Below, in pieces: positions 6,673 through 61,285 of a stretch of DNA of 64,000 bases (positions within the stretch are counted from its first letter, which is position 1; each line of letters opens with the position of its first letter). The DNA comes from Terracoccus sp. 273MFTsu3.1 (GTDB lineage: Bacteria > Actinomycetota > Actinomycetes > Actinomycetales > Dermatophilaceae). The notes below the pieces were generated by a model. That model was not told the origin of the DNA and did no database searches. It saw only the letters and a list, made by a program, of their open reading frames with translations. The position numbers and the translations under genes are program-made. Where the stretch lies: assembly GCF_000383675.1 (NCBI RefSeq), contig NZ_KB911821.1:682001-746000 (forward strand), given 5' to 3'.

Positions 6673-7425
6673 ATGGCGGATCGGTCGATGCCGCTCGGCC
6701 CGTATGCCGCCGTGTTCGCGCCGTTGCCCACCGCGGGCCGCGCCGAGGCCGTTCGCCGCCGCCTGGGCGAGGCGATCGCGCTCGGTCTGCTCCCCGACGG
6801 CAGCATGCTCCCGCCCGAGAGCGACCTCGCCGACCGGTTCGGCGTCGCCACGGTCACGGTCCGTGAGGCGCTCGGCACCCTGCGCGACGACGACCTCATC
6901 GTGACGCGCCGCGGCCGCGGGGGCGGGTCCTTCGTCAAGGCGCCTCATGACGGTGGCCGGGCGGCCCTGCTGACCCGGCTCACCCGGGTCGGCCTCGGCG
7001 AGCTGCGTGACCTCGCCGACCACTACTGCGCCATCAGCGGCCACTGCGCCGCCCTCGCGGCCGAGCGGGCCGACCCCGACGACGTGGCGCGCCTGCGCCG
7101 CCTGGCGGCGCTGCGCCCCGAGCCGGACGAACCGAGCGCCACGCCCCGACAGGAGGGCACCTTCCATCTCGAGCTGGCCGCAACCGCGCAGTCGGCGCGC
7201 CTGACCCGTGAGGAGATGGTGCTCCAGAGGGAGATCGGACCCGTGCTCTGGCTCGCGGACGCCGAGTCGGGCGCCGTGCGGCACCGTGAGCACGAGGCCG
7301 TCGTCGAGGCCGTGGCGCTCGGCGATCCCGCGGCGGCACGGGCCCGGGCGGAGGATCATGTCAGGCACCTGTTCGACGCGGTGAAGTCCCTGCACCGCGA
7401 GACCCGATCGCGGAGGGCCCCATGA
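6673..7425 (+). CDS. GntR-family transcriptional regulator (FadR/FCD type)
   Basis: 250 residues. The start chosen is the ATG at 6673 behind AGGGAGGG. An N-terminal winged helix (about residues 18-85) has the GntR signature LPPESDLADRFGVATVTVREAL followed, split for brevity, by the wing region TRRGRGGGSFV. An all-helical C-terminal domain (about 100-240) with conserved His/Asp/Arg-rich helices resembles the FCD ligand domain. Divergent from the ABC importer, it is the likely regulator of that operon through the palindrome at 6617-6628. It ends in a four-base overlap with the Cache-domain gene. Confidence 0.88.
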   Translation: MADRSMPLGPYAAVFAPLPTAGRAEAVRRRLGEAIALGLLPDGSMLPPESDLADRFGVATVTVREALGTLRDDDLIVTRRGRGGGSFVKAPHDGGRAALLTRLTRVGLGELRDLADHYCAISGHCAALAAERADPDDVARLRRLAALRPEPDEPSATPRQEGTFHLELAATAQSARLTREEMVLQREIGPVLWLADAESGAVRHREHEAVVEAVALGDPAAARARAEDHVRHLFDAVKSLHRETRSRRAP

Positions 7426-8153
7426 CGACCACGATGACCGACACCGACGTCGCCCGGTGGGTCTCGGACTTCGGGCAGTGGGTCTTCGGTCAGCTCGACG
7501 ACATCGCCGGGCTGCTCGAGGCCCCGCTGTCGGCGCCGGCCCCGAGGCGTTCCGACCTCGCCATCGAACAGCGCTGCCACGAGCTCCTCGCCGACCCACA
7601 GACGCCGGTGGCCGGGGCGGGCGCTGTGCTCGCTCCCGATGTCCTCGCGGACGCGCCCTACTGGCTGGAGTGGTGGACCGTCGAGTCCCGCGGCGGCACG
7701 ACGGTGATCGCCAAGCTTGCCGCCGAGACCGACCCACGCGCGGTCGGGTTTCGTGACTACACCGAGCTGCCTTGGTACGCAAAGCCTTTCGAGAGCGGCC
7801 AGCGCCATGTCACCGGACCGTACGTCGACTACCTCTGCACCGACCAGTACACCCTGACCTTCACCCAGCCCCTCGTCGTCGACGGCACGTTCGCCGGCGT
7901 CGTCGGGGTCGACGTCCTCGTCGCCTGGTTCGAGGAGCACCTCCTCGACGTCATGGAGGCCGTCGAGCGCACCTGCGTCCTCGTCAACGCCGCCGGCCGC
8001 GTCGTCACGTCGTCGGACCCGACGTGGGTGACCGGCGACCTCCTCCGGGGACTGCCGATCGAGGCCTGGCTGTCCGGAGACGAGGTCGACCACGCAGCAT
8101 GGTCGGCGACCCGCTGCGAGGGACTGCCGTTCCTCGTGCTCTCCCCGCGCTGA
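7422..8153 (+). CDS. Soluble Cache (PDC)-type sensor domain protein
   Basis: 243 residues, overlapping the GntR gene by ATGA. The centre reads as a Cache/PDC fold: PYWLEWWTV, a Tyr-rich RDYTELPWYAKPFESG segment, VTGPYVDYLC, TFTQPLVVDGTFAGVVGVDVL. In typical transmembrane receptors this domain is extracellular and binds amines, amino acids or carboxylates. Here there is no signal peptide and no membrane helix, so it appears cytoplasmic. Coupling to the regulator of a polyamine-type importer suggests it senses the same ligand or modulates the regulator. This is inference; no output domain is visible. Confidence 0.8.
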   Translation: MTTTMTDTDVARWVSDFGQWVFGQLDDIAGLLEAPLSAPAPRRSDLAIEQRCHELLADPQTPVAGAGAVLAPDVLADAPYWLEWWTVESRGGTTVIAKLAAETDPRAVGFRDYTELPWYAKPFESGQRHVTGPYVDYLCTDQYTLTFTQPLVVDGTFAGVVGVDVLVAWFEEHLLDVMEAVERTCVLVNAAGRVVTSSDPTWVTGDLLRGLPIEAWLSGDEVDHAAWSATRCEGLPFLVLSPR

Positions 8154-8162
8154 GGCTCCGGG

Positions 8163-9053
8163 TCAGCGTGCGGACGTCCGCCGGGGCGCCGGCCGCGCGG
8201 ACGTCCCTCGCGCCCGCTCACGTCTCGCCATGGAGCTCCAGAGGAGCAGCGAGGCCCCGAGCGTGGCGGCGAAGCCCGTCAGGAGCAGCCACGTCAGGGG
8301 ACGGTCGGTGTAGAGGTCGGTCCGCGCTCGCACGGCCCCGACGAGGATGAGCGTCAGCATGACGACCTCCACCTCGACCATGAGCCGCAGGCGTATCCAC
8401 CTGCTGTCACGGAGCACGACGAGACCGGCGCTGCCGAGGCAGAAGACCGCGCCGACGACGCGACACGTGAGCGGAGTCAGCAGCCACGGCCAGACCGGGA
8501 TCACGAGGCTCGGGAACGCGAACATCACGAGACCCTGCGCGAGCGCGAGGCCAGCACCGCCGGCGACGACCGCCCGGGCGCCGGGCCTGAGGCGCAGCTC
8601 GTCGGGTCGGGGCAGCGCGGCGACCCTGGTGTTGCCCACCCAGGCCGCGAGCACGAGGAACGGAGCGACGAAGTAGAGCGTGGCCCAGAGCCAGAAGGCG
8701 ACGTGTCCGTGGTTGAACCGGTCCCAGTGGAGGACCGTGGCCACGCAGAGCAGGGCAGCGAAGAGCGTGACGGACAGCAGGCCCGCACCGACCCGGGCCC
8801 ACCGCCGCTCACGCACGACGCGGACGAAGAACCACGCCCCGCCGAGATAGGCCGACGCCAGCACCATGGGGGTCAGGCTCGGCCTGATCGTCCAGGCGAA
8901 GAGCCGCCCGGTGTCGGACGGGAAGCCGTAGAGGATGGCGAACGCCGTCACGAGGATCGGCACGAGCACGATCGCGAGCACCCGCGTGGCCGGCAGGACG
9001 CGGTCGTCCCTCCGCGTCGTCGAGGGCGGGGACACAGGGTCGACGCGCGACAC
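8163..9053 (-). CDS. Uncharacterised membrane protein with about eight helices
   Basis: 296 residues from a GTG start. Eight hydrophobic segments are spaced evenly between residues 20 and 275, with a basic, Arg-rich C-terminal tail. I recognise no family. It begins only six bases after the stop of the soluble 199-residue gene upstream, so the two form an operon. Short charged loops and absence of catalytic-looking motifs suggest a channel, sensor or scaffold rather than an enzyme, but nothing specific can be claimed. Confidence 0.8.
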   Translation of the reverse strand: MSRVDPVSPPSTTRRDDRVLPATRVLAIVLVPILVTAFAILYGFPSDTGRLFAWTIRPSLTPMVLASAYLGGAWFFVRVVRERRWARVGAGLLSVTLFAALLCVATVLHWDRFNHGHVAFWLWATLYFVAPFLVLAAWVGNTRVAALPRPDELRLRPGARAVVAGGAGLALAQGLVMFAFPSLVIPVWPWLLTPLTCRVVGAVFCLGSAGLVVLRDSRWIRLRLMVEVEVVMLTLILVGAVRARTDLYTDRPLTWLLLTGFAATLGASLLLWSSMARRERARGTSARPAPRRTSAR

Positions 9054-9059
9054 AGCCGC

Positions 9060-9659
9060 TCACCCCCTCGACCGTCCGACGGCGTCGAGCAGGGCGGCAT
9101 ACGACGCGACGAGTGCCCGGCGCTCGGCGGCCACCAGAGGGTCGGTGAGCGAGCAGCCCCCGCGCACCCAGGCGTCGGAGAGATCCATCGCCTCGACCCG
9201 CCACGCGGCCGCGGGCCGCACACGGTCGGGATCGGCCGCGTACACGTAGGAGTAGAGGTCGACGAGGGCGCCGACGAGCTGGTCCTTGGTCACGTCGCCG
9301 TCGTGCTGGTGCTCGCGGTGCACGCGCCACCACTCGACCTCGAGGGTGGCGGCCCGCACCGGATCGAGGTCGAGACCGGCCGTCTCCGCGACCAGCGCGT
9401 AGAAGCGACGCATCAGGTCGCGCGCACGCTGGGCGTCGTTGTCGGGAAAGGGCGCCCACGCCTGGTTGGCCCGCAGCACGAGCCACGCACCGCGCAGCGT
9501 GTCGGCCTTGTTCATCCCGAAACCCGCCGCCACCATCGCCACCGACGCCCGCAGGAAGGCTGCCCACTCGTGCCTGTAGTAGGCCACCCACGCGTCCGTC
9601 TCCCGCTGCCCGACGGTGACCGCGTCGAACGACCTGGGCCCGTGCGTCCGTGCTCTCAT
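9060..9659 (-). CDS. Uncharacterised soluble protein, Trp/His-rich, paired with a membrane protein
   Basis: 199 residues from ATG 9659. The sequence is soluble, predicted mainly helical, with two notable stretches: DAWVAYYRHEWAAFL (residues about 24-38) and LEVEWWRVHREHQHD (about 105-120). An FGMNK stretch lies at about residues 50-54. No known family is recognised. It is divergent from a DUF5995 gene and is followed after six bases by an eight-helix membrane protein. The sequence looks conserved and codon use is normal, so I believe it is real. Confidence 0.75.
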   Translation of the reverse strand: MRARTHGPRSFDAVTVGQRETDAWVAYYRHEWAAFLRASVAMVAAGFGMNKADTLRGAWLVLRANQAWAPFPDNDAQRARDLMRRFYALVAETAGLDLDPVRAATLEVEWWRVHREHQHDGDVTKDQLVGALVDLYSYVYAADPDRVRPAAAWRVEAMDLSDAWVRGGCSLTDPLVAAERRALVASYAALLDAVGRSRG

Positions 9660-9772
9660 CCGGCCTCCTCGACCAGGAGCGCCCCCGCGCGACGGCGTTC
9701 GGATTCGACTGACACCGTGCGACTCCCGATCCAGAATAGGAGCGAGGGGCGGCGTGCGTGAGGAGAAACGCG

Positions 9773-10537
9773 ATGACCGGAACCGTGGGCGGTCGCACCA
9801 TCGACGACGTCCTCGAGCGGATGACCGCGACCCTCGAGCAGATGCCACCGGAGCTCTCCGCCCGACGCGCGTTCCTCGCGACCTACCAGCGCACGACGCG
9901 GGCCGTCGGCGCGGCCATCGAGGCCGCCGCCTTCGAGGACCCGGAGTGGGTCGAGCAGTGGGACGTCGTCTTCGCCGACCTCTACCTCGACGCCCTCGAC
10001 GCCGACCTGTCAGGCGACCCGGGACGGCAGGCGCCGCGGCCGTGGCGCCTCGCGTTCGGGGCCCCCGCCGACCTGCCGCCGCTGCGGCAGGTGCTCCTCG
10101 GCATCAACGCCCACATCAACTACGACCTGCCACAGGCCCTCCTCGGCGTCATCAGCGACGCCGACTTCGCCGACCTCGTCCTGCTCGACCGGCGGCGACG
10201 CGACCACGAGCGCATCGACGCGGTGCTGTCCGCCCGGGTCGCCGCGGAGGACGACGAGCTGGCCGCCCTGAGCGCCAAGAGCGCGCTCGACCGGGTGCTG
10301 ACGCCGCTCAACCGCGCGGCCTCGACCCGCTTCCTGCGCGAGGCCCGCACCAAGGTGTGGCACAACACGACCGAGCTCCAGCGGGCTCGCGTCGCCGGCC
10401 CGGAGGCGTATGCCGTCCGGCTCGCCGAGCTCGAGGTGCTCAGCGCCGCTCGCATCGCCGACCTGCTCGCCCCCGGACAGGTGCTGCTCCGGCTGGCCGT
10501 GGCGGGCTTCGGCGTCGTGCTGCCACCGGCGGGCTGA
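9773..10537 (+). CDS. DUF5995 family protein
   Basis: 254 residues. ATG 9773 is preferred over GTG 9758 because AGGAGA sits at the right distance before it. The segment GINAHINYDLPQAL (about residues 106-119) is the hallmark of the DUF5995 family of actinobacteria. The fold is probably all-helical; the conserved His and Asp residues in that segment could bind a metal. The function is unknown. It is divergent from the 199-residue unknown gene and ends before a strong hairpin. Confidence 0.82.
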   Translation: MTGTVGGRTIDDVLERMTATLEQMPPELSARRAFLATYQRTTRAVGAAIEAAAFEDPEWVEQWDVVFADLYLDALDADLSGDPGRQAPRPWRLAFGAPADLPPLRQVLLGINAHINYDLPQALLGVISDADFADLVLLDRRRRDHERIDAVLSARVAAEDDELAALSAKSALDRVLTPLNRAASTRFLREARTKVWHNTTELQRARVAGPEAYAVRLAELEVLSAARIADLLAPGQVLLRLAVAGFGVVLPPAG

Positions 10538-10578
10538 GGCCGCCACACGCAGACGCGAGCAGGCCTCCCGGACACAGG

Positions 10579-11257: not shown

Positions 11258-11297
11258 TCCCGGGCGCACGACGAGCCGTCGCGGCGGCGCCGGGGCC

Positions 11298-13964
11298 TCA
11301 GAGGCCCCACGGCCGCTGGTCGCCCGCGAACGGGTCGGGCCGGCAGATCAGGTCGGCCACGAGCCCGGTCCACCCGGTCTGGTGGCTGGCCCCCAGCCCG
11401 GCACCGTTGTCACCGTGGAAGTACTCGAAGAAGGTCACGTTGTCCCGCCAGCGGGGGTCGGCCTGCAGCTTCTCGACGTGCCCGTGGCACGGGCGTCGGC
11501 CGTCCGGACCTCGGAGGAACAACGAGATCAGGCGCCGACGCAGGTCCTCGGCGCAGTCGGCCAGCCCCTGCGTGTGCCCGCTTCCGGTGGGGTACTCGAC
11601 CTCGCTCGCGGACCCGAGCGACCGGGCATACCGTTGGAGGTTGCGCAGCACGAGGTAGTTGACGGGCATCCACACGGGTCCGCGCCAGTTGGAGTTGCCG
11701 CCGAACATGCCTGTCGTGGACTCCGCGGGCTCGTAGTCGACCGTGACCGTCGACCCGGCGAGCTCGACCGACAGCGGGTGCTCGAGGTGGAAGCGCGAGA
11801 GCCCACGCAGCCCGTGCGGCGACAGGAACTCGTCCTCGTCGAAGACCCGGCCCAGGACCCGACGCGCTGCTCTCGGCGGCACGACACCGATCGCGACGGC
11901 CTCCGTGCCGGGGATCTCGACGACCCGACCGCGACCGCGCTCACCGGAGGTCGGTCCCTGGTGCCCGAGGAACCCCGAGAAGCGCTTCTGGAGGGTGCCG
12001 AGCGTCCGGAGCAGCTCCGGCCTGACGACGACCATCCCGAGCAGCGGCAGCACGCCGACCATCGACCGTGCCCTGATCGGGACCGTGCTGCCGTCTGCGC
12101 CGTGGAAGACGTCGTAGAAGAAGCCGTCCTCCCCGTCCCAGAGACCCTGGGAGTGCATGGCGTCGACGATGAGCACGAAGTGCTCGACGAACTTCACCTC
12201 GATGTCGGTCCACGCGTCGTCCTTCTCGGCGAGGATCCTGGCGATCTCGAGGAGGGTGAGCGAGTAGAACGCCATCCAGCTCGTCCCGTCGGCCTGCTCG
12301 AGGCGGCCACCCGGTGGCAGGTGGGACCGGTCGATGGCGCTGATGTTGTCCAGGCCCAGGAAGCCACCGGCGAAGAGGTGGTCTCCCTCCGGGTCCATCC
12401 GGTTGACCCACCACGTGAAGTTCATGAGCAGCTTGGGCATGAGTCGGCCCAGGAAGTCGGTGTCGCGCCTTCCGTCGATGTCCCACACGTGCAGGGCAGC
12501 CCACGCGTGAACGGGTGGGTTGGCGTCGCTGAAGGACCATTCGTAGGCCGGGAGCGCGCCGTTGGGGTTCTGGAACCACTCCCGGCACAGCACGAGCAGC
12601 TGGTACTTGGCGAACGCCGGGTCGAGGTGGGCCAGGGCGACGGTGTGGAACGCCATGTCCCAGGCGGCGAACCACGGGTACTCCCACGGGTCCGGCATCG
12701 ACAGGATGTCGCGAGCGTCCACGTTGAGCCAACCGGCGTTGCGCCCGGACCGTCGCTCCGGCGGAGGCGGAGGCTGCGTGGGATCGCCCTCGAGCCAGCG
12801 CTTCACGTCGTATCGGTAGAACTGCTTGCCCCAGATCATCCCGGCGAAGGCTTGTCGCGCCACGAGGCGGGCGTCCTCGTCGACGTCGGCGGGGATGACC
12901 TCGGCATAGAACTCGTCGGCCTCGGCGCGACGCTGCTCGAGCACCGTGTCGAACGCAGCGCCGAAGGCGGGTGCCGTGGACGGTGCACGGAGGCGGACGC
13001 GTACGACCTGCGTCTCGCCCGGCGCCACGGTCAGGCGGTACCAGGCCGCACTCTTCGACCCGACCCGGTCCGGGTTGACCGTGCGCGCGCCGGACACGAC
13101 GTGGTCGTTGACGCCGTCCTTCGGGTAGTCCGCTGACGAGTCCGACCCGTACAGTCGCCGGCCGTTGGTCTCGTTCTCGCAGAACAGCAGGTCGGGCGGT
13201 CCTCCCGCGGGTGCGGGCGCGAGCTCCCACTCGAGCTCGCCGAACCGCGGGTGCTGCACCTGGACCCGATCGGGACCCGTCGCCCTCAGCGCGGGCCGGA
13301 TGGCACCCACGTCCCACGACCACGTGTTGCGGAACCACAGCTGGGGCAGCACGTGCAGCGTCGCGACGTCCGGACCCGCGTTGGTGACGCGAACCTCCAT
13401 GAGCAGGTCGTGCGGGTCGGCCTTGGCGTGCACGACGTCGACCACCCAGTAGCGGTCGTCGTCGAAGACCCCGGTGTCCATGAGCTCGTACTCCGGCTGC
13501 GTGTGGTCACGCCGGGCACTCTCGGCCACGAGGGCGGCATACGGGTACTCGGCCTGCGGGTAGTGGTAGCGCCAGCGCAGCCAGGCGTGGCTGGGCAGGG
13601 CGTCGAGGAACCACCAGTACTCCTTGACGTCCTCGCCGTGGTTGCCCTCGGGACCGGTCAGGCCGAACATCCGCTCCTTGATGATCGGGTCCCGACCGTT
13701 CCACAGGGCCAGCGCCATGCACAGGTTCTGGCCGACGTCGCTGACGCCGGCCATGCCGTCCTCGCCCCAGCGGTACGCACGGGAGCGCGCGTGGTCGTGC
13801 GGGAAGTAGTCCCAGGCCGAGCCGTCGGCGCTGTAGTCCTCGCGCACCGTTCCCCAGGCCCGCTCGGAGAGATAGGGGCCCCAGTCGTACCACGGGGTGG
13901 CCTCGTGCAGACCGTCCTCGGGGTGACCGAACGAGTCCACCCTGGCGCGTTCCGTACCGGGCAT
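11298..13964 (-). CDS. GH63/MGH1-like glucosidase
   Basis: 888 residues from ATG 13964, preceded by GAAGGAG. The N-terminal third is a beta-sandwich region; the C-terminal two thirds are an (alpha/alpha)6-barrel typical of the mannosyl-oligosaccharide-glucosidase-like superfamily: WGKQFYRYDVKRWL, PWEYPWFAAWDMAFH, YEWSFSDANPP, GGNSNWRGPVWMPVNY and a terminal FFEYFHGDNG stretch. Asp in AWDMAFH and Glu in the late region are plausible catalytic acids. No signal peptide, so cytoplasmic. Likely substrates are glucosylglycerate, trehalose-like or alpha-glucan oligosaccharides; sequence alone does not decide. It lies beside a ROK regulator. Confidence 0.85.
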   Translation of the reverse strand: MPGTERARVDSFGHPEDGLHEATPWYDWGPYLSERAWGTVREDYSADGSAWDYFPHDHARSRAYRWGEDGMAGVSDVGQNLCMALALWNGRDPIIKERMFGLTGPEGNHGEDVKEYWWFLDALPSHAWLRWRYHYPQAEYPYAALVAESARRDHTQPEYELMDTGVFDDDRYWVVDVVHAKADPHDLLMEVRVTNAGPDVATLHVLPQLWFRNTWSWDVGAIRPALRATGPDRVQVQHPRFGELEWELAPAPAGGPPDLLFCENETNGRRLYGSDSSADYPKDGVNDHVVSGARTVNPDRVGSKSAAWYRLTVAPGETQVVRVRLRAPSTAPAFGAAFDTVLEQRRAEADEFYAEVIPADVDEDARLVARQAFAGMIWGKQFYRYDVKRWLEGDPTQPPPPPERRSGRNAGWLNVDARDILSMPDPWEYPWFAAWDMAFHTVALAHLDPAFAKYQLLVLCREWFQNPNGALPAYEWSFSDANPPVHAWAALHVWDIDGRRDTDFLGRLMPKLLMNFTWWVNRMDPEGDHLFAGGFLGLDNISAIDRSHLPPGGRLEQADGTSWMAFYSLTLLEIARILAEKDDAWTDIEVKFVEHFVLIVDAMHSQGLWDGEDGFFYDVFHGADGSTVPIRARSMVGVLPLLGMVVVRPELLRTLGTLQKRFSGFLGHQGPTSGERGRGRVVEIPGTEAVAIGVVPPRAARRVLGRVFDEDEFLSPHGLRGLSRFHLEHPLSVELAGSTVTVDYEPAESTTGMFGGNSNWRGPVWMPVNYLVLRNLQRYARSLGSASEVEYPTGSGHTQGLADCAEDLRRRLISLFLRGPDGRRPCHGHVEKLQADPRWRDNVTFFEYFHGDNGAGLGASHQTGWTGLVADLICRPDPFAGDQRPWGL

Positions 13965-15323: not shown

Positions 15324-16616
15324 ATGACCACCACGCACGTCACCCCCGCCGACACCGACCTCCCGCACTGGGAGACCCCACCCGAGGACCTGCCCGCGGC
15401 GATCCGTGAGGTCAAGAGCGCGATCCGGGCGCGCATCGAGGCGTCCGGCCGGTCCGTCGCCGAGGTCTTCGCCGTCGTCGAGGCTCGTGTCGCCGAGCGC
15501 GTCGCCGAGATCCGCGCGGCCCGCGAGCGCGGCGAGGACGTCTGGCCCGTCATCGACTACGCCGACATCGAGCAGGGCACGGTCACCCCGGAGCAGCTCG
15601 CGGCGCTCCGCCGGCGTGGCTGCCTCGTCGTCCGCGGCCACTTCCCGCGCGAGCAGGCGCTCGCCTGGAATGCCGGCATCGTCGACTACGTCGAGGGCAA
15701 CGCCTTCTTCGAGAGCTACCGGGGGCCGGGTGACGACTTCTTCGGCAGCGTCGGGTCGAAGCCCGAGATCTACCCCGTGTACTGGTCCCCTGCGCAGATG
15801 GAGGCCCGACAGAGCGAGCGCATGGCCACGGTCCAGTCGCTGCTCAACGCGCAGTGGACGCACGAGTCCGACGGCGTGCAGTGGTTCGACCCCGACCGCG
15901 ACTCGCTCTACCCCGACCGCATCCGCCGCCGCCCTCCGGGCGCCGACTCGAACGGCCTCGGGGCGCACTGCGACCCGGGCACGCTGGACCTCTGGATGAC
16001 GCAGGGCTACCAGCAGGCCTTCCGCCACCTCTTCGACGGCAGCGTGGAGCAGTACGACCCCTGGGACGCCGCCCACCGCACCTCCGGCCCGCAGTACCCG
16101 GGCACGACGATGTGCTCGGCCTTCCGCACGTTCCAGGGCTGGACCGCGCTGTCCGACATGGACCACGACCAGGGCGTCCTGCACACGGTCCCGATCCCCG
16201 AGGCGATGGCATACCTCATGCTTCGCCCGCTGCTCGACGACGTCCCGGACGACGACATGTGCGGGGTCACGACCAACCAGGTCTTCCCGGCCAGCGAGCG
16301 CTGGCACCCGCTCCTGCTCGAGGCTCTGAGCGGCATCCCCGACGTGCGCGCCGGCGACTCCGTGTGGTGGCACTGCGACATGATCCACAGCGTCGCGCCC
16401 GTCACCGACCAGCAGGGCTGGGGCAACGTCATGTACATCCCCGCCGCGCCCTGGTGCGAGCGCAACGAGCGGTATGCCGCCAGCGTGCGCGAGGCGTTCC
16501 TCACCGGTTCCAGCCCGAGCGACTTCCCGGAGGAGGACTACGAGCGCAGCTGGCCCGACCGGTTCGCCCCCGAGCAGCTCAACGAGACGGGACGCCGCGG
16601 GCTCGGGCTCGACTGA
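15324..16616 (+). CDS. DUF1479 family protein, Fe(II)/2-oxoglutarate oxygenase-like (YbiU-type)
   Basis: 430 residues. The sequence matches the DUF1479/YbiU family: RRRGCLVVRGHFP near residue 100, GAHCDPGTLDLW with H215 and D217, and DSVWWHCDMIHSVAP with H355. H215, D217 and H355 are well placed for the 2-His-1-carboxylate iron triad of the jelly-roll dioxygenases. Substrate is unknown. The ROK regulator upstream hints at a sugar or sugar-acid. The gene converges with an ArsC-like gene, with two bases between stop codons. Confidence 0.88.
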   Translation: MTTTHVTPADTDLPHWETPPEDLPAAIREVKSAIRARIEASGRSVAEVFAVVEARVAERVAEIRAARERGEDVWPVIDYADIEQGTVTPEQLAALRRRGCLVVRGHFPREQALAWNAGIVDYVEGNAFFESYRGPGDDFFGSVGSKPEIYPVYWSPAQMEARQSERMATVQSLLNAQWTHESDGVQWFDPDRDSLYPDRIRRRPPGADSNGLGAHCDPGTLDLWMTQGYQQAFRHLFDGSVEQYDPWDAAHRTSGPQYPGTTMCSAFRTFQGWTALSDMDHDQGVLHTVPIPEAMAYLMLRPLLDDVPDDDMCGVTTNQVFPASERWHPLLLEALSGIPDVRAGDSVWWHCDMIHSVAPVTDQQGWGNVMYIPAAPWCERNERYAASVREAFLTGSSPSDFPEEDYERSWPDRFAPEQLNETGRRGLGLD

Positions 16617-19873: not shown

Positions 19874-20959
19874 TCAGACGTTGAAGCGGAACTCCACGAC
19901 GTCGCCGTCGGCCATGACGTAGTCCTTGCCCTCGATGCGGACCTTGCCGGCGGCCTTGGCTGCGTTCATGTTCCCCGCCGCGACGAGGTCGTCGAACGAG
20001 ACGACCTCGGCCTTGATGAAGCCGCGCTGGAAGTCGGTGTGGATGACCCCGGCGGCCATCGGCGCGGTCCACCCCTTGCCGATCGTCCACGCGCGCGACT
20101 CCTTGGGGCCGGCCGTGAGGTACGTCTGCAGCCCGAGCGTGTGGAAGCCGGTGCGGGCGAGCTGGTCCATGCCGGACTCCTCGGCCCCGAAGCTCTGGAG
20201 CAGCTCGAGCGCCTCGTCGGGCTCCATCTCCATGAGGTCCATCTCGAGCTTGGCGTTGAGGAAGACCGCGTCGGCCGGCGCCGCGAGCTCACGCAGCGAC
20301 GCCTGGAGGTCCGCGTCCGCGAGCTGGTCCTCGTCGAGGTTGAAGACGTAGATGAAGGGCTTGGTCGTCAGCAGACCGAGCTGCTTGGCCTCGGCCAGGT
20401 CCACCCCGGCGGCCGGCCCGGCGGCATACAGCGTGTGGCCCTCCTCGAGGACCTTCTGCGCGGCGAGCGCGAGGTCGACGGCAGCCTTCTTGTCCTTGTT
20501 GACCCGGGCCTCCTTCTCGAGGCGGGGCACGGCCTTCTCGAGCGTCTGGAGGTCGGCGAGGATGAGCTCGGTGTGGATCGTCTCGATGTCGCTCGCGGGG
20601 CTCACCTTGCCGTCGACGTGGACGACGTCGCCGTCCTCGAAGGCGCGGACGACCTGGCAGATCGCGTCGGCCTCACGGATGTTGGCGAGGAACTTGTTGC
20701 CGAGCCCCTCCCCCTCGGAGGCGCCGCGGACGATGCCGGCGATGTCGACGAAGCTCACCGTGGCCGGGAGGATCTTCTCCGAGCTGAAGATCTCGGCGAG
20801 CGCGCCGAGGCGCGAGTCCGGCAGCGGGACGACGCCGACGTTGGGCTCGATGGTCGCGAACGGGTAGTTCGCGGCGAGCACGTTGTTCTTGGTCAGCGCG
20901 TTGAAGAGCGTCGACTTGCCGACGTTGGGGAGACCGACGATTCCGATGGTGAGTGCCAC
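19874..20959 (-). CDS. ychF: Redox-regulated ATPase/GTPase YchF
   Basis: 361 residues, the usual length for YchF. The P-loop GLPNVGKST is at residues 9-17, [20 protein letters not shown] is the switch region (split: [15 protein letters not shown]), and NLDE replaces the canonical NKxD, which is why YchF prefers ATP. A coiled-coil insert and a C-terminal TGS domain ([11 protein letters not shown] to [13 protein letters not shown]) follow. YchF binds ribosomes and modulates oxidative stress responses. It lies 67 bases downstream of the phosphatase gene. Confidence 0.97.
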
Positions 20960-21026
20960 GAGGACAAGAGTTTAGTGGCGATCTGAGGCCACGCCGACCA
21001 CGAGGGCGTATGCCGCCCTCCCCCGC

Positions 21027-22411: not shown

Positions 22412-22551
22412 GGACAAGGTGTAACAGACGTCCCCGACGTCCCGTCCACCCCGGGCGTATGCCGTCCGCCACGTCCGGTCCGCCCCAGCCGTTGCGACGT
22501 GGCCGGGTGTCGCGTCCCCATGGTGTCGGCGCCGTCTGGGACGGTGCTCGC

Positions 22552-30577: not shown

Positions 30578-31525
30578 ATGTCCGACCCGACGCCCCCCTC
30601 GTCGCCCGTGCGCACCCTCGTCGTCGGCGAAGCCCTCGTCGACGCGGTGACGACCGCTGCCGGCGACACCGCCGAGCACGTCGGCGGCAGCCCCGCCAAC
30701 GTCGCCTTCGGCCTGGCGGCCCTCGAGCACCCGGTCGACCTCGCGACGTGGATCGCGACCGACGAGCGCGGTCGCCGCATCGAGGACGTATGCCGTGAGC
30801 GCGGCGTCGCCCTGACCGCGGGCTCCCAGGGTGCACCCTTCACCTCCGTCGCGCACGCGACGCTCGACGCCACGGGTGCCGCGACGTACGTCTTCGACCT
30901 CGAGTGGCAGGTGGCCGCGGTCCCCGGCCTCACGGCATACGGCCACGTCCACACCGGCAGCATCGCCGCCGTCCTCGAGCCCGGCGGCAGTCAGGTGCGC
31001 GAGATCCTCACCGAGGCCCGCGAGCTGGGTGCGACGGTGTCCTACGACCCGAACGCACGACCGTCGCTCATGGGGCGTCCCGAGCAGGCCAGGCACACCA
31101 TCGAGAGCTCGATCGCGCTGTCCGACGTCGTCAAGGTCAGCGACGAGGACATCGAGTGGCTGTGCCCCGGCGAGGCCATCGACGACGTCATCCGCGCGTG
31201 GGGCGAGCTCGGACCCTCCCTCGTCGTCGTGACCCGCGGGGGCGAGGGCGCGGTCTTCCGTGTCACCCGCACCGGCGAGCAGCAGGCGCTCGCGGCGCCC
31301 ACCGTCACCGTCGTCGACACGGTCGGGGCCGGTGACTCGTTCATGGCGGGGCTCGTGTCGGGCCTCATCGATGCCGGCCTGCTCGGTGGGTCGGCCGCGA
31401 GGACCCGTCTGCGGGCGGCCTCCCTGGCCGAGGTCGTGCCCTCGGTGGAGCGCGCGCTGCACACGGGCGCGCTCACCGTCGAGCGGGCCGGGGCCCACGC
31501 GCCGACCCGAAACGACCTGACCTGA
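30578..31525 (+). CDS. PfkB-family carbohydrate kinase (fructokinase-like)
   Basis: 315 residues. The family markers are clear: HVGGSPANVAFGLAAL near residue 38, SYDPNARPSL around 155, and the anion hole/catalytic motif DTVGAGDSFMAGLVSG near 247-262, with the base Asp in GAGD. The opening TLVVGEALVD resembles fructokinases. It phosphorylates a sugar at the expense of ATP; fructose is the most likely substrate and this fits co-transcription with glpX, but ribokinase-like substrates cannot be excluded. Confidence 0.9.
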   Translation: MSDPTPPSSPVRTLVVGEALVDAVTTAAGDTAEHVGGSPANVAFGLAALEHPVDLATWIATDERGRRIEDVCRERGVALTAGSQGAPFTSVAHATLDATGAATYVFDLEWQVAAVPGLTAYGHVHTGSIAAVLEPGGSQVREILTEARELGATVSYDPNARPSLMGRPEQARHTIESSIALSDVVKVSDEDIEWLCPGEAIDDVIRAWGELGPSLVVVTRGGEGAVFRVTRTGEQQALAAPTVTVVDTVGAGDSFMAGLVSGLIDAGLLGGSAARTRLRAASLAEVVPSVERALHTGALTVERAGAHAPTRNDLT

Positions 31526-37074: not shown

Positions 37075-37102
37075 CGTATGCCGTGGGGCTCGGCGGCATA
37101 CG
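37075..37102. repeat. Inverted pair of the GTATGCCG motif before the fumarase gene
   Basis: CGTATGCCG (37075-37083) and CGGCATACG (37094-37102) are exact reverse complements separated by 10 bases. They are two of the 22 window copies of the over-represented octamer and could form a 9-bp hairpin 42 bases before the fumarase start. Confidence 0.7.
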
Positions 37103-40647: not shown

Positions 40648-42699
40648 TCAGCCGAGGCCGCGACGCTCGAGCAGGTGCCGGATGTCCGCGTCGGCGCCGC
40701 GGAACTCGCGGTAGGACTCGAGCGGGTCGGCGGCGCCGCCGATCCCGACCACGTGGCGGCGGTAGCGGTCGCCGTTGGCGCGGGTCAGGCCGCCGTTCTC
40801 GCGGAACCACGCCACGGTGTCGGCATCGAGCACCTCGCTCCAGATGTAGGCGTAGTACTGGGCGTCGTACGCGTACGAGAAGGTGTGCGCGAAGTACGTC
40901 GACCGGTAGCGCGGCGGCACGAGGGGGTTCGCGAGCCCGACCGCGGCGAGGGCGGACGCCTCGAAGGCCTCGACGTCCGTCACCGTCGCGGCCTCCTCGA
41001 CGTCGATGGCGTGCCACGCCTGGTCCAGCAGCGCTGCCGCGAGGTACTCACCCGTCGCGAAGCCCTCCCCGAAGGACTGCGCCGCGACGAGGCGGTCGAC
41101 GAGCTCCTGCGGCAGGGGCTCCCCCGTCTCGTGGTGCACCGCGTAGCTCCCGAGCACCTCGGGCCAGAGCATCCACATCTCGTTGACCTGGCTCGGGTAC
41201 TCGACGAAGTCGCGGAAGACGCGGGTGCCGGCGAAGTGCGGGTAGGTCACCCGCGCGAGCAGGCCGTGGATCGCGTGCCCGAACTCGTGGAAGAAGGTGC
41301 GGGTCTCGTCGAAGGTGAGCAGCGTCGGCTCACCCGGGCCGGGCTTGGGCACGTTGAGGTTGTTGCACACGACGGCGCTCGTCTGACCCAGCAGGGTGTT
41401 CTGGTGGACGAGGCTGTTCATCCACGCCCCGCCCTTCTTCGTGTCGCGGGTGTGGAGGTCGAGCAGGTAGAGCCCGAAGGGCGTCCCGTCGGAGTCGTGC
41501 ACCTCGAAGACGCGGACGTCGGGGTGGTAGCCCTCGAGGTCGTCGCGCTCGTGGAAGGTCAGGCCGTACAGCAGCCCGGCCGCGTGGAAGATCCCGTCGT
41601 GGAGCACCCGCTCGGCCTCGAAGTAGGGTCGCATCGCCGCGAGGTCGACGGCATACCTCGACGCGCGGACGCGTTCGGCCCAGAACGCCCAGTCGTGCGC
41701 CTCCACGGGGTGGCCGGCCTCCTCCTCGAGGAGGGCCCGCTCGGCCTCGATGTTGCGGGCCGCGGCCGGGGCGAGGCGCCCCAGCAGGTCCATGACGCGT
41801 TCAGGGGTGCGCGCCGTGGAGTCGGCGAGCGCTGCAGCGGCATGCGTGTCGTAGCCGAGGAGCCGGGCCCGCTCGGCCCGGAGCCGGACGGTCTCGAGGA
41901 CGAGCGCCTTGGTGTCGTTGGCGTTGTCCCGGTTGCCGCGGGAGCCCTGCGCCTCGTGGAGCCGACGGCGCAGGTGACGGTCGGTGAGCGAGGCGAGGTG
42001 GGGATGCCCGGTCGGCAGGACGAGGGTGAGCAGCCAGGCCCCTTCGTGCCCGTGCTCGGCCGCAGCCGCCGCGGCGGCCGAGATCTCGCCCGCGGTCAGC
42101 CCGTCGAGCGCCGTCACGTCGTCGACGAGGACGGCGAGGTCGTTGGAGTCGGCGAGCAGCCGCTTCTCGAACTGGGTGCCGAGGCTCGCCAGCCGGCCGT
42201 TGAGCTCGCGCAGGCGGTCCTTCGCGCTCTCGTCGAGCCCCGCCCCGGCGACGGTCATCTCGGTGAGGTGCCGCTCGACGAGACGTCGAGACTCCGGGTC
42301 GAGGGCGGCCATCGCCGCCTCGTCGTCGTGGAGGGCCCTGATCCGGGCGTAGAGGCGCGGGTCGAGCCGGACCGCGTCGGCGTGAGCGGTGAGGCGCGGC
42401 GCGTACTCCTCCTCGATCGCCTGCACGGCGTCGGTGGCGAGGGAGCTCGACGTCCCGAAGAAGGCGAGGCTCGTCCGGCTCAGCGTCTGCCCCGAGCGCT
42501 CCAGTGCGACGAGCGTGTTCTCGAAGGTCGGGGGCGCCGGGTCGCCCGCGATCGAGTCGACCTCGGCGAGGTGCTCGGCCATGCCGCGGTCGAAGGCCTC
42601 GCGGTAGTGCTCGTCGCGGATCAGGGCGAAGGGCGGCAGCCCGTGGGGCAGCGGGCTCGGGGCGAGCAGCGGGTTGGCGGCCGGGATCTCGTCGGGCAT
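40648..42699 (-). CDS. M3-family zinc oligopeptidase (Dcp/oligopeptidase A-like)
   Basis: 683 residues. The zinc motif HEFGH is at 471-475 (H471, E472 and H475), inside RTFFHEFGHAIHGLL. The third ligand Glu lies about 25 residues later in the DFVEYPSQVNEMW segment. The C-terminal YRSTYFAHTFSYAYDAQYYAY (split: YRSTYFAHTF, SYAYDAQYYAY) supplies the substrate-binding Tyr/His loop. No signal peptide: a cytosolic enzyme that trims short peptides, dipeptidyl carboxypeptidase or oligopeptidase A type. Confidence 0.95.
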   Translation of the reverse strand: MPDEIPAANPLLAPSPLPHGLPPFALIRDEHYREAFDRGMAEHLAEVDSIAGDPAPPTFENTLVALERSGQTLSRTSLAFFGTSSSLATDAVQAIEEEYAPRLTAHADAVRLDPRLYARIRALHDDEAAMAALDPESRRLVERHLTEMTVAGAGLDESAKDRLRELNGRLASLGTQFEKRLLADSNDLAVLVDDVTALDGLTAGEISAAAAAAAEHGHEGAWLLTLVLPTGHPHLASLTDRHLRRRLHEAQGSRGNRDNANDTKALVLETVRLRAERARLLGYDTHAAAALADSTARTPERVMDLLGRLAPAAARNIEAERALLEEEAGHPVEAHDWAFWAERVRASRYAVDLAAMRPYFEAERVLHDGIFHAAGLLYGLTFHERDDLEGYHPDVRVFEVHDSDGTPFGLYLLDLHTRDTKKGGAWMNSLVHQNTLLGQTSAVVCNNLNVPKPGPGEPTLLTFDETRTFFHEFGHAIHGLLARVTYPHFAGTRVFRDFVEYPSQVNEMWMLWPEVLGSYAVHHETGEPLPQELVDRLVAAQSFGEGFATGEYLAAALLDQAWHAIDVEEAATVTDVEAFEASALAAVGLANPLVPPRYRSTYFAHTFSYAYDAQYYAYIWSEVLDADTVAWFRENGGLTRANGDRYRRHVVGIGGAADPLESYREFRGADADIRHLLERRGLG

Positions 42700-44127: not shown

Positions 44128-44386
44128 GCTTGTGTGCCTTCCCGAGGGGTCCGACCCACTGGGCCGAGAGATGTGCTCGCACGACGATACCGCCCCGACG
44201 GCATACGGCCATCCGGCCCAGCCAGAACGGGTCACAACGGACATACCCGCTCCGACGGTGCCGGAAAGTGGCAGGGAACTGGCAGGTGGCACCCATCCAC
44301 TTCCCAGACATACCCCGCGACGATGTGCCCATCCCCGGGGCCCGACACCCGCGGGCCTTCCCGGGTCCTTCCCAGAGAGGCACTCG

Positions 44387-45559: not shown

Positions 45560-45602
45560 CGGGGCACCGACCCCGCCTGACGGCATACGCCATCGGGCAC
45601 GA

Positions 45603-49186: not shown

Positions 49187-50146
49187 TCAGGCGGTCGGGG
49201 TCGTGATCTGGTCGAGCTCGGCCAGGTCCTCGGCGGTCGGCTCCCACAGGCCGGCCCGGACGTTGTCGACGACCTGCTCGGGGCGCGTCGCCCCCGCGAT
49301 CACCGAGGCGACCGCGGGCTGGGCCGCGAGGCCGCCGATCGCGACGTCGATGGGGCGCAGACCGCGCTGGGCGGCATACGCCTCGAGGGCCTCGATCGTG
49401 TCCCAGTCGGCGCCGTCGAGGCGGTCGGCCATCCCGGCGAGGCGGGTGCCCTCCGGGGCCGGCTCGCCGCGGCGGTACTTTCCGGTGAGCAGGCCGGAGG
49501 CGAGCGGGAAGAACGGGAGCAGCCCGACTCCGACGTGCTCGCACGCGGGCACGAGCTCGTCCTCGACGTCACGCTCGAGCAGGGAGTACTCGTTCTGCGC
49601 CGAGACGAACCGGGAGGTGCCTGCGGCCCGCGCTGTCCAGTCGGCGTCGACGACCTGCCAGCCGGTGAAGTTGCTGCTGCCGAGATAGCGCACCTTGCCC
49701 TCGCGGACCAGCTCGTCGAGGGCCGCCAGCGTCTCGTCGATCGGGGTCTGCGGGTCGGGTCGGTGAAGCTGGTAGAGGTCGATCCAGTCGGTGCCGAGCC
49801 GTCGCAGGCTCGCTTCGACGGCCTTGCGGACGTAGCGGCGCGAGCCACGCACCCCCCAGTCGGGGCCGTTGGCACCCTGCATGTCCATGCCGAACTTCGT
49901 TGCCACCACGACGTTCTCGCGCTCAGATCCCAGCGCGAGGCCGAGCATCTCCTCGCTGGCACCCTGGCCGTAGATGTCGGCGGTGTCGAAGAGGGTGATG
50001 CCGCTGTCGAGTGCCTGGCGCACGACGGCGTTCGTGCCGTCCTGGTCGAGGCGTCGGCCGAAGTTGTTGCAGCCGACGCCGACGGTCGAGACGGTGAGCC
50101 CGCTGTCGCCGAGCTGCCGGTAGGTCATGTCAGGAGTCGCAGTCAC
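49187..50146 (-). CDS. Aldo/keto reductase
   Basis: 319 residues from a GTG start. Catalytic tetrad residues are visible: D and Y in FDTADIYGQG, K in VVATKFGM and H in DLYQLHRPD. The NADPH-binding C-terminal stretch AVASVIAGATRPEQVVDNV is intact. An (alpha/beta)8 barrel that reduces aldehydes or ketones; the general YghZ/KAT-beta-like group gives no substrate. It converges with the MFS gene and is followed by the pullulanase on the same strand further upstream. Confidence 0.92.
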   Translation of the reverse strand: MTATPDMTYRQLGDSGLTVSTVGVGCNNFGRRLDQDGTNAVVRQALDSGITLFDTADIYGQGASEEMLGLALGSERENVVVATKFGMDMQGANGPDWGVRGSRRYVRKAVEASLRRLGTDWIDLYQLHRPDPQTPIDETLAALDELVREGKVRYLGSSNFTGWQVVDADWTARAAGTSRFVSAQNEYSLLERDVEDELVPACEHVGVGLLPFFPLASGLLTGKYRRGEPAPEGTRLAGMADRLDGADWDTIEALEAYAAQRGLRPIDVAIGGLAAQPAVASVIAGATRPEQVVDNVRAGLWEPTAEDLAELDQITTPTA

Positions 50147-50248: not shown

Positions 50249-56044
<5,796 letters not shown>

Positions 56045-56144
56045 GCGCACTCCTTTGTGGGCTGGGTCGCTCACGCCCGTGTCTGGACGCTCGACCACCG
56101 GGGAGAACCTAGCGCCCGAATCGGACACCACGCCAGCCCTGGCC

Positions 56145-56158
56145 TGCAAAATCTTGCA
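56145..56158. promoter_or_regulatory. MalR-like operator upstream of the pullulanase gene
   Basis: TGCAA-AATC-TTGCA is a 14-base palindrome 100 bases before the pullulanase ATG; a related TTGCGGTTTCTTGCG follows at about 56174-56188. The TGCAA/TTGCA arms resemble maltose-regulator sites of actinobacteria. Assignment is by resemblance only. Confidence 0.45.
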
Positions 56159-57424: not shown

Positions 57425-57474
57425 CTGCGTAGGTTCTGCATCAGATCGCTCGACCGGACCCGACGGAGGAAGCC

Positions 57475-57756: not shown

Positions 57757-57764
57757 CCGAGCCG

Positions 57765-58295: not shown

Positions 58296-58416
58296 GGCCC
58301 GAGCGTATGCCGCGGGCTCCCCCGACGCCCCGGGGGTCCGCAGGCCGTCATCCCCGTATGCCGTCAGCGCAGCGGGCGGCAGCCTCCGGAAGGTCGCCGC
58401 CGCGGCCCCGCCCGCC

Positions 58417-59466
58417 TCAGTGCGAGAGCTCGGCGACGACGGTGGCGGCGGGCACCGGTCGTGCCGACCTCCAGCCCGAACCGGCCCACAGGGCCAGCAG
58501 GTCCGAGCGCTCCGCCTGTGCCGACGCCCGCCGCAACGGCACCGTGAGGTGGTGGACCTCCGGGTAGGCGGCGGGGGCGTGGCCGTCGTGCCGACGCAGG
58601 AACTCGGTCTCGAGACCGCGGGCGAGGCGGCCCGAGTAGGCCCGGGTCACGGCGGTGCGCTCGTACGAGGGGTCGGCGAGCGCGCGGCGGTAGGCGAGGC
58701 CGGTCCCGGCCTCGGGAGTGAGCAGCAGCGCGGTCCCGACCTGGACGGCGTCGGCCCCGGCGGCTCGCACCTGCGCGGCTCGCTCGGGGGTCGAGATCCC
58801 GCCCGCGGCGACGATCGGCGCGTCCGTCTGCGACCGCACGGCGGCGACGAGGTCGAGCAGGTCGGAGGTCGACGGCTCCTTGGCCGGGTCTAGGGTGCCA
58901 CGGTGTCCGCCGCCCTCCGGTCCTTGGAGGCAGAGCCCGTCGACGCCGGCACCGAGGGCCGCCGCCGCCTCGTCGACGTCGGTGACCGTCGCGACGGTCT
59001 CGATGCCAGCACGGCGCAGCTCACCGAGAACTGCGGTGCTCGGCAGCCCGAAGGTGAAGGACACCAAGGGAACTCGCTCCCGCACGACGAGGTCGAGCTT
59101 GCGTTCCCAGTCGTCGTCGTCGCCGGGTCTCGGCTCACCGGGCTCGACGCCGACGGACCGCGCGTCGTCTCCGAGCGTCTCGCGGTAGGCGGCCACCGCG
59201 TCGGCGCGCTCGGCGCCGGTCAGCTCGCCCGGCCCGACGGCATACGCGTTCGCCTGGGCGGGCACGAAGAGGTTGACGCCGAAGGGGCGCGAGCTCGCGT
59301 CCCACACCTCGGCGATCGCCGACGCGAGCTGGGGTGCCGTGAGGTAGCCGGCAGCGAGGAAGCCCAGCCCGCCGGCCTCGCCGACAGCGGCGACGAGCTC
59401 GGGAGTCGTCGGGCCTCCCGCCATCGGGGCGCCGACGACACCGGTCTCCAGGGTTCGCAGCAGCAT
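58417..59466 (-). CDS. Nitronate monooxygenase-family flavoprotein
   Basis: 349 residues. TIM-barrel FMN enzyme: APMAGGPTTPELVAAVGEAGG at the start (split: APMAGGPTTP, ELVAAVGEAGG), GADAVQVGTALLLTPEAG for the FMN phosphate, and LCLQGPEGGGHRGT with the His proposed as the catalytic base in bacterial nitronate monooxygenases. It oxidises alkyl nitronates such as propionate 3-nitronate, detoxifying natural nitro compounds. It is 121 bases upstream of ybaK, and the gap carries two copies of the GTATGCCG octamer. Confidence 0.9.
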   Translation of the reverse strand: MLLRTLETGVVGAPMAGGPTTPELVAAVGEAGGLGFLAAGYLTAPQLASAIAEVWDASSRPFGVNLFVPAQANAYAVGPGELTGAERADAVAAYRETLGDDARSVGVEPGEPRPGDDDDWERKLDLVVRERVPLVSFTFGLPSTAVLGELRRAGIETVATVTDVDEAAAALGAGVDGLCLQGPEGGGHRGTLDPAKEPSTSDLLDLVAAVRSQTDAPIVAAGGISTPERAAQVRAAGADAVQVGTALLLTPEAGTGLAYRRALADPSYERTAVTRAYSGRLARGLETEFLRRHDGHAPAAYPEVHHLTVPLRRASAQAERSDLLALWAGSGWRSARPVPAATVVAELSH

Positions 59467-59537
59467 GCCCCGACGCTACTCCGCTCCCCCGCCCGGGGCA
59501 CCGGGCCGTGCGGCCGGCGTCGCGGGTGTGGGCGGGG

Positions 59538-61220
59538 TCACCGCGGTCGGACGACCCGCCCCTCGTCCCACACCGGCTCGGTCGACTCGTAGACGCGGCC
59601 GTCGGCACCGAAGACGAGGAAGCGGTCGAAGCCGCGCGCGAACCACCGGTCGTGGGTGACGGCCACGACCGTGCCCTCGAAGCGGTCGAGCCCCTCCTCG
59701 AGCGCCTCGGCCGACTGGAGGTCGAGGTTGTCGGTGGGCTCGTCGAGCAGCAGCATCGTCGCGCCCGAGAGCTCGAGCAGCAGGATCTGGAAGCGGGCCT
59801 GCTGGCCTCCTGACAGCGACTCGAACTTCTGCTCGCCCGAACGCGCCAGCTCGTAGCGGTCGAGGGCGCGGGCGGCCTGCTCGCGCGGGCGGCCCTCGCG
59901 GTGCTCGTCGCCCCGGTGCAGGATCTCGAGCAGCGTGCGCCCCATGAGCGAGGGGTGCTCGTGCGTCTGCGCGAACCATCCCGGACGCACCCGCGACCCC
60001 AGTCGCACGACGCCGGAGTGATCGACGGGGACCGGCCGCACGTCGCCGACGGGCTGGTGCTCGCGCTCGGGATCGGTGCCGCCGCACGCGAGCAGCCGCA
60101 GGAAGTGCGACTTGCCGGAGCCGTTGCTGCCGAGGATCGCGACGCGCTCGCCGTACCAGACCTCGAGGTCGAAGGGCTTCATCAGACCGGTCAGCTCGAG
60201 CCCCGTCGCGACGATGGCCCGCTTGGCCGTGCGGCCTCCCGTGAGGCGCATCTTGACCGACTGCGTCATCGGCGTCTCCTCGGGCGGCCCGGCCTGCTCG
60301 AACTTCGCGAGGCGGGTCTGCGCGGCCTGGTAGCGCGACGCCATGCCGTCGTTGAACTTGGCCTTGACCTTGAGCGTCTGCACGAGGGTCTTGAGCTTGA
60401 CGTGCTCCTCGTCCCAGCGGCGCCGCAGCTCCTCGAGGCGGTCGTTGCGGTCGGTGCGGGCCTGCGCGTACGTCGCGAAACGGCCCGGGTGCACCCAGAG
60501 GGTGGCGCCGGCGGCACCGGGCTCGAGCGTCGCGACGCGGGTCGCGACCCGGTCGAGCAGCTCGCGGTCGTGGCTGATGAAGAGCACCGTCTTGGGCGAT
60601 GCCACGAGCGCCTCCTCGAGCCAGCGCTTCGTCGGCACGTCGAGGTAGTTGTCCGGCTCGTCGAGGAGCAGCACCTCCTCGGGCCCGCGCAGCAGCGCCT
60701 CGAGCACGAGCCGCTTCTGCTCACCACCGGAGAGCGTCGTGACCGTGCGCCACTGCGCCTGCTCGTAGGGGATGCCGAGGGCCGCGACGGTGCACTGGTC
60801 CCAGAGCGTCTCCTGCTCGTAGCCGCCGGCCTCGCCCCACTCGACGAGCGCGTGGGCGTAGGCCATCTGGTCGTCCTCGGAGTCGCGCTCCATCATGAGC
60901 AGCTCGCTGCGGTCGATCTCCTCGGCGGCGGCGCGGATGCGGTCGGGGGCCACCGAGACGAGCAGGTCGCGCACCGTCGTGTCGTCGCGCACCTTGCCGA
61001 TGAACTGGCGCATGACGCCCAGTCCGCCCGAGCGCGTCACCGCTCCCTCGTGGGCCGCGATGTCGCCGGCGATGATCCGCGTCAGCGTCGTCTTCCCGGT
61101 GCCGTTGGGGCCGATGAGCGCGACCTTGGCGCCCTCCCCGACCCGCACGGAGACGTCGTTGAGCAGCGGCCTGCCGTCAGGCAGGCTGAACGAGACGGAG
61201 TTGACGTCGACATGGCCCAC
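59538..61220 (-). CDS. ABC-F family ATPase
   Basis: 560 residues from GTG 61220; the VGHVDVNSVSFSL opening matches the usual family N-terminus better than TTG 61229. Two nucleotide-binding domains: Walker A GPNGTGKTT and GSNGSGKSH, signatures TLSGGEQKR and SLSGGQQAR, Walker B LLLDEPDNYLD and LLLDEPTDNLD. A charged linker (about 240-300) is the ribosome-binding PtIM region. No membrane domain. ABC-F proteins act on stalled ribosomes or give antibiotic resistance by target protection; which applies is not clear. Confidence 0.93.
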   Translation of the reverse strand: MGHVDVNSVSFSLPDGRPLLNDVSVRVGEGAKVALIGPNGTGKTTLTRIIAGDIAAHEGAVTRSGGLGVMRQFIGKVRDDTTVRDLLVSVAPDRIRAAAEEIDRSELLMMERDSEDDQMAYAHALVEWGEAGGYEQETLWDQCTVAALGIPYEQAQWRTVTTLSGGEQKRLVLEALLRGPEEVLLLDEPDNYLDVPTKRWLEEALVASPKTVLFISHDRELLDRVATRVATLEPGAAGATLWVHPGRFATYAQARTDRNDRLEELRRRWDEEHVKLKTLVQTLKVKAKFNDGMASRYQAAQTRLAKFEQAGPPEETPMTQSVKMRLTGGRTAKRAIVATGLELTGLMKPFDLEVWYGERVAILGSNGSGKSHFLRLLACGGTDPEREHQPVGDVRPVPVDHSGVVRLGSRVRPGWFAQTHEHPSLMGRTLLEILHRGDEHREGRPREQAARALDRYELARSGEQKFESLSGGQQARFQILLLELSGATMLLLDEPTDNLDLQSAEALEEGLDRFEGTVVAVTHDRWFARGFDRFLVFGADGRVYESTEPVWDEGRVVRPR

Positions 61221-61285
61221 GAGGGTCAAGCCTGACGTATGCCGTGTGGCCGCGTCACCCGGTTAAGCATCCCAGCGCGCACGCG

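Follow-up and report, generated by a model that had tools for sequence, protein, structure and literature searches.

The octamer GTATGCCG occurs 22 times in a stretch of 64,000 nt from Terracoccus sp. 273MFTsu3.1 (hereafter the window), and the whole genome of this strain contains 2,244 copies (0.45 per kb). We propose, at a probability of roughly 45%, that this word may be a self-DNA tag working like the DNA uptake sequences (DUS) and uptake signal sequences (USS). According to this proposal a sequence-specific reader, probably belonging to the DNA import machinery, would favour DNA bearing the word; imported pieces carrying it would recombine into the genome, and copies would spread until most of the sites that the coding sequence permits in the favoured frame are filled. 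The word is enriched, occupies a high share of synonymous sites, is balanced between the strands and regularly spaced, exists in dialects and avoids itself in an orientation-specific manner. Biased uptake would be the force behind these features, and a reader protein should then exist. Biased uptake plus recombination is the process known to generate patterns of this kind, as the title of a modelling paper by Maughan from 2010 also says.

The initial annotation of the window listed the 22 copies, 11 on each strand, and estimated that about two would be expected by chance. All coordinates and strands turned out to be exact; dinucleotide shuffles of the window (n = 100) contained on average 0.81 copies, with a maximum of 4, and an order-3 Markov model predicts 1.2. 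The suspicion that the signal is genome-wide was also borne out. The genome contains 1,133 forward and 1,111 reverse copies compared with 257 copies of the reversed word (116 and 141), which rules out a count near the Markov expectation and agrees with a non-polar signal; the balance holds roughly within 20 kb stretches as well. In 464 kb of this genome (the window plus 20 further stretches, with 326 called genes) GTATGCCG was found 223 times versus 11.6 expected from an order-3 Markov model (19-fold), and the extended word CGTATGCCGT 80 times versus 0.91. The flanks are graded: C precedes 67% of the copies in the 464 kb, and Y (82%) and then S (94%) follow. The word is not palindromic, as it differs from its own reverse complement. 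As a separate observation, the favoured extended form CGTATGCCGTC has ATGCCGTC in common with the Neisseria uptake sequence ATGCCGTCTGAA (letters as given in the available part of PMC5031613), which is probably a coincidence. The copies of GTATGCCG in the window are the following.

6702..6709, plus strand, within a called gene
9095..9102, minus strand, outside called genes
10408..10415, plus strand, within a called gene
13535..13542, minus strand, within a called gene
16472..16479, plus strand, within a called gene
20422..20429, minus strand, within a called gene
21008..21015, plus strand, outside called genes
22457..22464, plus strand, overlapping the start of a called gene
30788..30795, plus strand, outside called genes
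30933..30940, minus strand, outside called genes
37076..37083, plus strand, left arm of the sole close inverted pair of the window
37094..37101, minus strand, right arm of the close inverted pair 37076/37094
41649..41656, minus strand, within a called gene
44199..44206, minus strand, within a called gene
45581..45588, minus strand, outside called genes
49372..49379, minus strand, within a called gene
50315..50322, plus strand, within a called gene (amylase/pullulanase)
55825..55832, minus strand, within a called gene (amylase/pullulanase)
58305..58312, plus strand, outside called genes
58356..58363, plus strand, outside called genes
59238..59245, minus strand, within a called gene
61237..61244, plus strand, outside called genes; the aligned place in relative G026 reads GGATGCCG

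The amylase/pullulanase gene (50249-56149) encodes a 1,966-residue protein in which an alpha-amylase-like part is joined to a pullulanase part.

The pressure that maintains the word acts on DNA and not on protein, as had been supposed from the codon pair TAT-GCC (Tyr-Ala) seen in the window. In the 326 called genes GCC follows 98 of the 161 TAT codons compared with 153 of the 2,154 TAC codons, in agreement with the claim that TAT stands mostly before GCC and not equally often before all codons. The protein sequence leaves room for GTATGCCG at 161 sites in the Tyr-Ala frame, of which 86 hold it; in ten other genomes that use the word (users) 50 to 100% of such sites are filled, some of these genomes having just 6 to 8 sites, and in two genomes without the word none are (0/17 and 0/2). 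When all frames are considered, 147 of 438 permitted coding places of the Terracoccus genome contain the word, compared with 8.3 predicted from codon usage (18-fold), and the corresponding enrichment in three other users is 14-, 15- and 22-fold. Outside called genes the word is about twice as dense as inside (0.83 versus 0.39 per kb), and 146 of the 223 copies lie inside. Genes in user genomes were called with a purpose-made simple scorer; over the 464 kb it marks just 80% as coding, so that some of the outside sites may sit in missed genes. The enrichment between genes stated in the initial annotation is supported; in the window 10 of 22 copies lie outside called genes, compared with the 9 given there. 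Together the filled Tyr-Ala sites, the 18-fold excess over codon usage and the double density outside genes establish that selection is at the level of DNA. Density in divergent gaps is 0.50 per kb, and there was no preference for convergent over tandem gaps (0.87 and 0.86 per kb). An origin through C-to-T deamination of the related word GTACGCCG is disfavoured because the neighbouring codons also match the word: a codon ending in G before and GCC after are found at 114 of 161 permitted places in the Terracoccus genome and at 4 of 17 in relative G010.

The spacing of the copies was analyzed in 1.15 Mb taken from eleven user genomes. At distances of 250 to 1,000 bp there were 107 same-orientation pairs versus 172 expected, compared with 205 opposite pairs; the same-orientation share of 0.34 is the lowest of 85 similarly abundant words, GTATGCCG included (mean 0.52). 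In the Terracoccus genome, permitted sites more than 3 kb away from a same-orientation copy are 62% occupied and those within 1 kb 14 to 28%, whereas with respect to opposite copies occupancy stays at 36 to 52%. In agreement with this, a same-orientation copy within 1 kb gave a stratified odds ratio (OR) of 0.43 for occupancy in ten genomes, a value as low as this being reached in none of 2,000 permutations; for an opposite copy the stratified OR was 1.23, and pooling of eleven genomes showed that near opposite copies accompany slightly higher occupancy (OR 1.47, p 0.013). Genome G004 additionally contains runs of GTATGCCG copies 63 bp apart in near-identical repeats.

We studied the distribution of the word in 149 genomes of the host's family and in 273 genomes of 19 other families of its order, these groups being the kinship groups of the database; genomes above and below the copy thresholds were tallied by eye from listings. 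In the family 84 genomes contain at least 341 copies and 65 contain at most 322, and some of the latter are still several-fold above the control (G016: 235 versus 47). The highest density was 1.36 per kb (G095). In the other families the top count was 177, with 135 for its reversed control. Hence, abundance of GTATGCCG is confined to a single family among those sampled. Conservation of individual window sites was compared with that of two kinds of control words in five relatives, and the expectation of conserved sites held in two of them. Retention is clearly above control in G122 (88% identity; 14/16 versus 43 to 52%) and G039 (84%; 12/17 versus 33 to 40%), shows no clear excess in G113 (94%; 15/20 versus 67 to 70%) and G136 (86%; 2/6 versus 33 to 50%), and is lost in G026 (82%; 0/13 versus 27 to 34%).

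Some relatives use the one-letter dialects GGATGCCG, GTACGCCG or GTATGNCG. G026, which sits among GTATGCCG users on a tree of AdnAB proteins, has 56 copies of GGATGCCG in 77 kb versus 6 expected, and 3,949 genome-wide versus 289 of the reversed word; window site 61237 has an aligned counterpart there that reads GGATGCCG, a dialect switch in place. For GTACGCCG the counts and reversed controls are 3,903/310 in G040, 4,185/207 in G102 and 2,618/161 in G048. Among the 65 low-count genomes, ten carry 1,100 or more copies of GTACGCCG and six others 1,200 or more of GGATGCCG, although two of these six (G001 and G134) reach only 4.3 times their control; the remaining 49 have neither word at those levels. 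Because several low-count genomes use dialects, we dropped the idea that loss of an accessory gene lies behind the patchiness (at least nine changes on the 40-genome AdnAB tree). Enrichment of the dialect word over codon usage in coding sequence is 4.5-fold in G026, 6.0-fold in G040 and 3.2-fold in G023, with 0.8 to 2.7 for off-dialect words. Position 6 tolerates all four bases in G003 and at least three in G004, and G069 prefers GTACGGCG and GTACGACG. One genus contains genomes with both words (G044, 1,217 GTATGCCG and 2,195 GGATGCCG; G079, 1,189 and 2,099) as well as genomes with mostly GGATGCCG (G103 and G118). Elsewhere G037 has a different enriched word, CGAAGGGG (64 versus 9.4 expected in 67 kb), G010 and G001 have only weak variants, and no nameable enriched word was found in G125, G041, G008 and G014.

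The general form of the word would be GKAYGNCG, with reader specificity changing at positions 2, 4 and 6. The one-letter dialects of some relatives make it probable that the word co-evolves with a protein that recognises it. We tentatively extend this to a Gram-positive self-recognition code, that is, a family-wide uptake tag whose reader would repeatedly have switched specificity by single bases via relaxed states; such states may be represented by the joint presence of GTATGCCG and GGATGCCG in G044 and G079, and by the tolerance of G003 for every base at position 6.

To have yardsticks, the same measurements were made on USS (DUS properties were not measured) and on Chi of Escherichia coli, with genes called by a longest open reading frame rule. 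Density of USS is about 0.44 to 0.91 per kb in four Pasteurellaceae genomes. In 400 kb of two Pasteurellaceae genomes, USS fills 220 of 349 permitted sites over all frames, and its coding enrichment is 32-fold over codon usage. A near same-orientation copy lowers USS occupancy (OR 0.54, p 0.008), and a near opposite one does not (OR 1.48, p 0.11). In these genomes (G422 and G423) occupancy was 22% at less than 250 bp from a same-orientation copy versus 59 to 73% beyond, with no such drop for opposite copies; in the portions of the USS literature available to us we found no mention of this orientation-specific avoidance. USS on viral contigs was rejected as a yardstick, being too noisy. In 200 kb of E. 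coli, Chi fills 63 of 251 sites versus 20 expected (3.1-fold), without self-avoidance at 1 kb, at the low power that 63 sites afford. Thus, GTATGCCG resembles USS in strength, saturation and orientation rule. The initial annotation had named a repair site and a nucleoid-protein site next to an uptake signal without deciding between them; these comparators favour the uptake signal.

Several results weigh against an uptake tag. According to the part of PMC1939737 available, known USS work irrespective of orientation. The orientation rule is therefore unexplained under the uptake model, though it is found in USS too, and this keeps the Chi and strand-mark alternatives discussed below alive. We initially considered an uptake tag to be disproved by avoidance that depends on orientation, an argument that was dropped as USS behaves alike at short range. 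The ranges differ, however: self-avoidance of GTATGCCG in the Terracoccus genome reaches 2 to 3 kb, whereas that of USS acts mainly below 250 bp and is small at 1 kb (31-fold versus 34-fold). USS pairs at 250 to 1,000 bp show no asymmetry (89 and 94 versus 102 expected), and the contrast in pair distance between the two words has p values of 0.002 at 250 to 1,000 bp and 0.037 at 60 to 1,000 bp. Close opposite pairs, which are common in uptake sequences without defining them and are abundant for USS (31 versus about 8 expected), are not enriched for GTATGCCG (15 within 60 bp versus 14 expected in the 1.15 Mb); hence the inverted pair 37076/37094, described in the initial annotation as a hairpin, is real but not typical. 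Taken singly, four of the ten genomes (G003, G004, G039 and G068) show little self-avoidance. Coding enrichment of the dialect words is weaker (3.2- to 6.0-fold), which a high background explains in part, and clear self-avoidance of these words was not seen in the small samples analyzed.

Nor was a determinant found in the machinery examined. ComEC matched in 145 of the 149 family genomes and TadE in all 38 searched, both with and without GTATGCCG, so that these nearly universal proteins were rejected as determinants; the four ComEC-less genomes (G029, G033, G034 and G085; 58 to 95% complete) all carry the word. Counting for the tag together with these matches, transformation of the actinobacterium Micrococcus luteus depends on Flp/Tad pilus genes (PMC4322843, available part). 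The type IVa pilus marker PilM_2 matched in only 5 of 149 genomes and not in that of Terracoccus, and such a pilus was therefore discarded as the link. No reader protein or diagnostic gene was found; the occurrence of ComEC, TadE, PilM, RecC and AdnAB does not go along with that of the word. To our knowledge, transformation has not been reported for the host's family. The accessible text of a review (PMC5031613) describes such tags for two families of Gram-negative bacteria, that of PMC10526031 states that no uptake sequence has been reported in mycobacteria, and among the top-ranked open-licence PMC papers our search returned no report of the word or of actinobacterial uptake sequences.

An unlikely alternative is a Chi-like site: the helicase-nuclease AdnAB, starting from a double-strand break, would read the word on one strand and switch from degradation to recombination. 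An effect that depends on orientation and extends over 1 to 3 kb fits an enzyme reading one strand, and all 40 genomes fetched yielded matches, some of them partial, to the two genes of an AdnAB-type pair. The second such gene of Terracoccus matches chain 6ppu_B at 1.2e-186, in an entry named UvrD/REP helicase; we take 6ppu to be the mycobacterial AdnAB. Whether AdnAB obeys any Chi is described as unknown (PMC4824097) and as still unclear in 2026 (PMC13309787), in the parts of these papers at hand. A hint in favour comes from column 245 of AdnB, in helicase motif III (GDP-N/H-QSIY): 13 genomes, which all use GTATG or GGATG words, have Asn there, and the 27 others, among them the five GTACGCCG users and G010, have His. 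This column was selected post hoc among 2,097, and His is also present in nine main-word users. A hint at column 61 failed, as 133 of 5,000 random quartets did equally well and the GTACGCCG users G024, G048 and G069 retain His. No AdnA or AdnB residue separates the word groups cleanly. The 14- to 22-fold coding enrichment is far above the 3.1-fold of E. coli Chi, which did not avoid itself at 1 kb, and strand polarity is absent. RecBCD was rejected as the reader since RecC does not follow the word, having no match in the Terracoccus genome and matching in 7 of 24 users versus 12 of 22 low-count genomes.

Likewise doubtful is a methylated strand mark, in which a methyltransferase would mark one strand and the mark would guide strand choice in mismatch repair or another process; as in the model for HIP1, each strand would have to carry marks of its own roughly once per kilobase. 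Strand-specific self-avoidance at the 1 kb scale would suit such a mark; the HIP1 paper (PMC4390886, available part) proposes that methylation guides mismatch repair over about 1,000 nt, and single-base dialects could follow changes of the methyltransferase. Yet HIP1 is palindromic and GTATGCCG is not, and the graded flank preferences recall a binding site more than the site of an enzyme. We regard it as improbable that a nucleoid or regulatory protein binds the word and that each copy is selected on its own. Enrichment outside genes and regular spacing would suit such a site, but occupancy of half or more of the coding sites together with orientation-specific avoidance would not be expected of a regulator, and divergent gaps are not favoured. 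An artefact of codon usage or composition, for which nothing was found in favour, is already refuted by the counts: the reversed-word control is low, enrichment extends outside genes, coding copies far exceed codon usage, and the Tyr-Ala pair is about equally common in users (2.2 to 3.8 per 1,000 residues) and one non-user (2.9), and rarer in another (1.0).

If GTATGCCG is an uptake tag, self-DNA recognition would no longer be limited to Pasteurellaceae and Neisseriaceae but would include Gram-positive bacteria, and the close dialects would allow joint changes of a reader and thousands of sites to be studied. Should the word be a Chi site, it would bear on the question whether AdnAB is regulated by sequence. 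In both cases it may help to predict what DNA is treated as self by these bacteria, a point of relevance for transforming them.

Among known systems, HIP1 of cyanobacteria is likewise a highly repeated octamer that is low or replaced in some members of its group, but it is palindromic and tied to methyltransferases (PMC4390886, same part). Chi shares with GTATGCCG that it is a non-palindromic, over-represented octamer, and works in one orientation (PMC5443536, available part); it differs in its much weaker coding enrichment, in strand polarity, in the RecC that lacks a match in Terracoccus, and in the self-avoidance seen for GTATGCCG and not for E. coli Chi. From USS and DUS the word differs by its actinobacterial host without a PilM_2 match and by being shorter than DUS; relative to USS it lacks the enrichment of close opposite pairs, avoids itself over a longer range and has a weaker excess of single mismatches (1.3 to 1.7 versus 1.8 to 2.3). 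It is like them in copy density, strand balance, more than random regularity, preference for non-coding DNA, filled coding sites, family-wide occurrence with variants and, as measured for USS, orientation-specific self-avoidance. Redfield and colleagues give a list of DUS/USS features in the part of PMC1626085 available to us, and GTATGCCG displays all of these except close opposite pairs.

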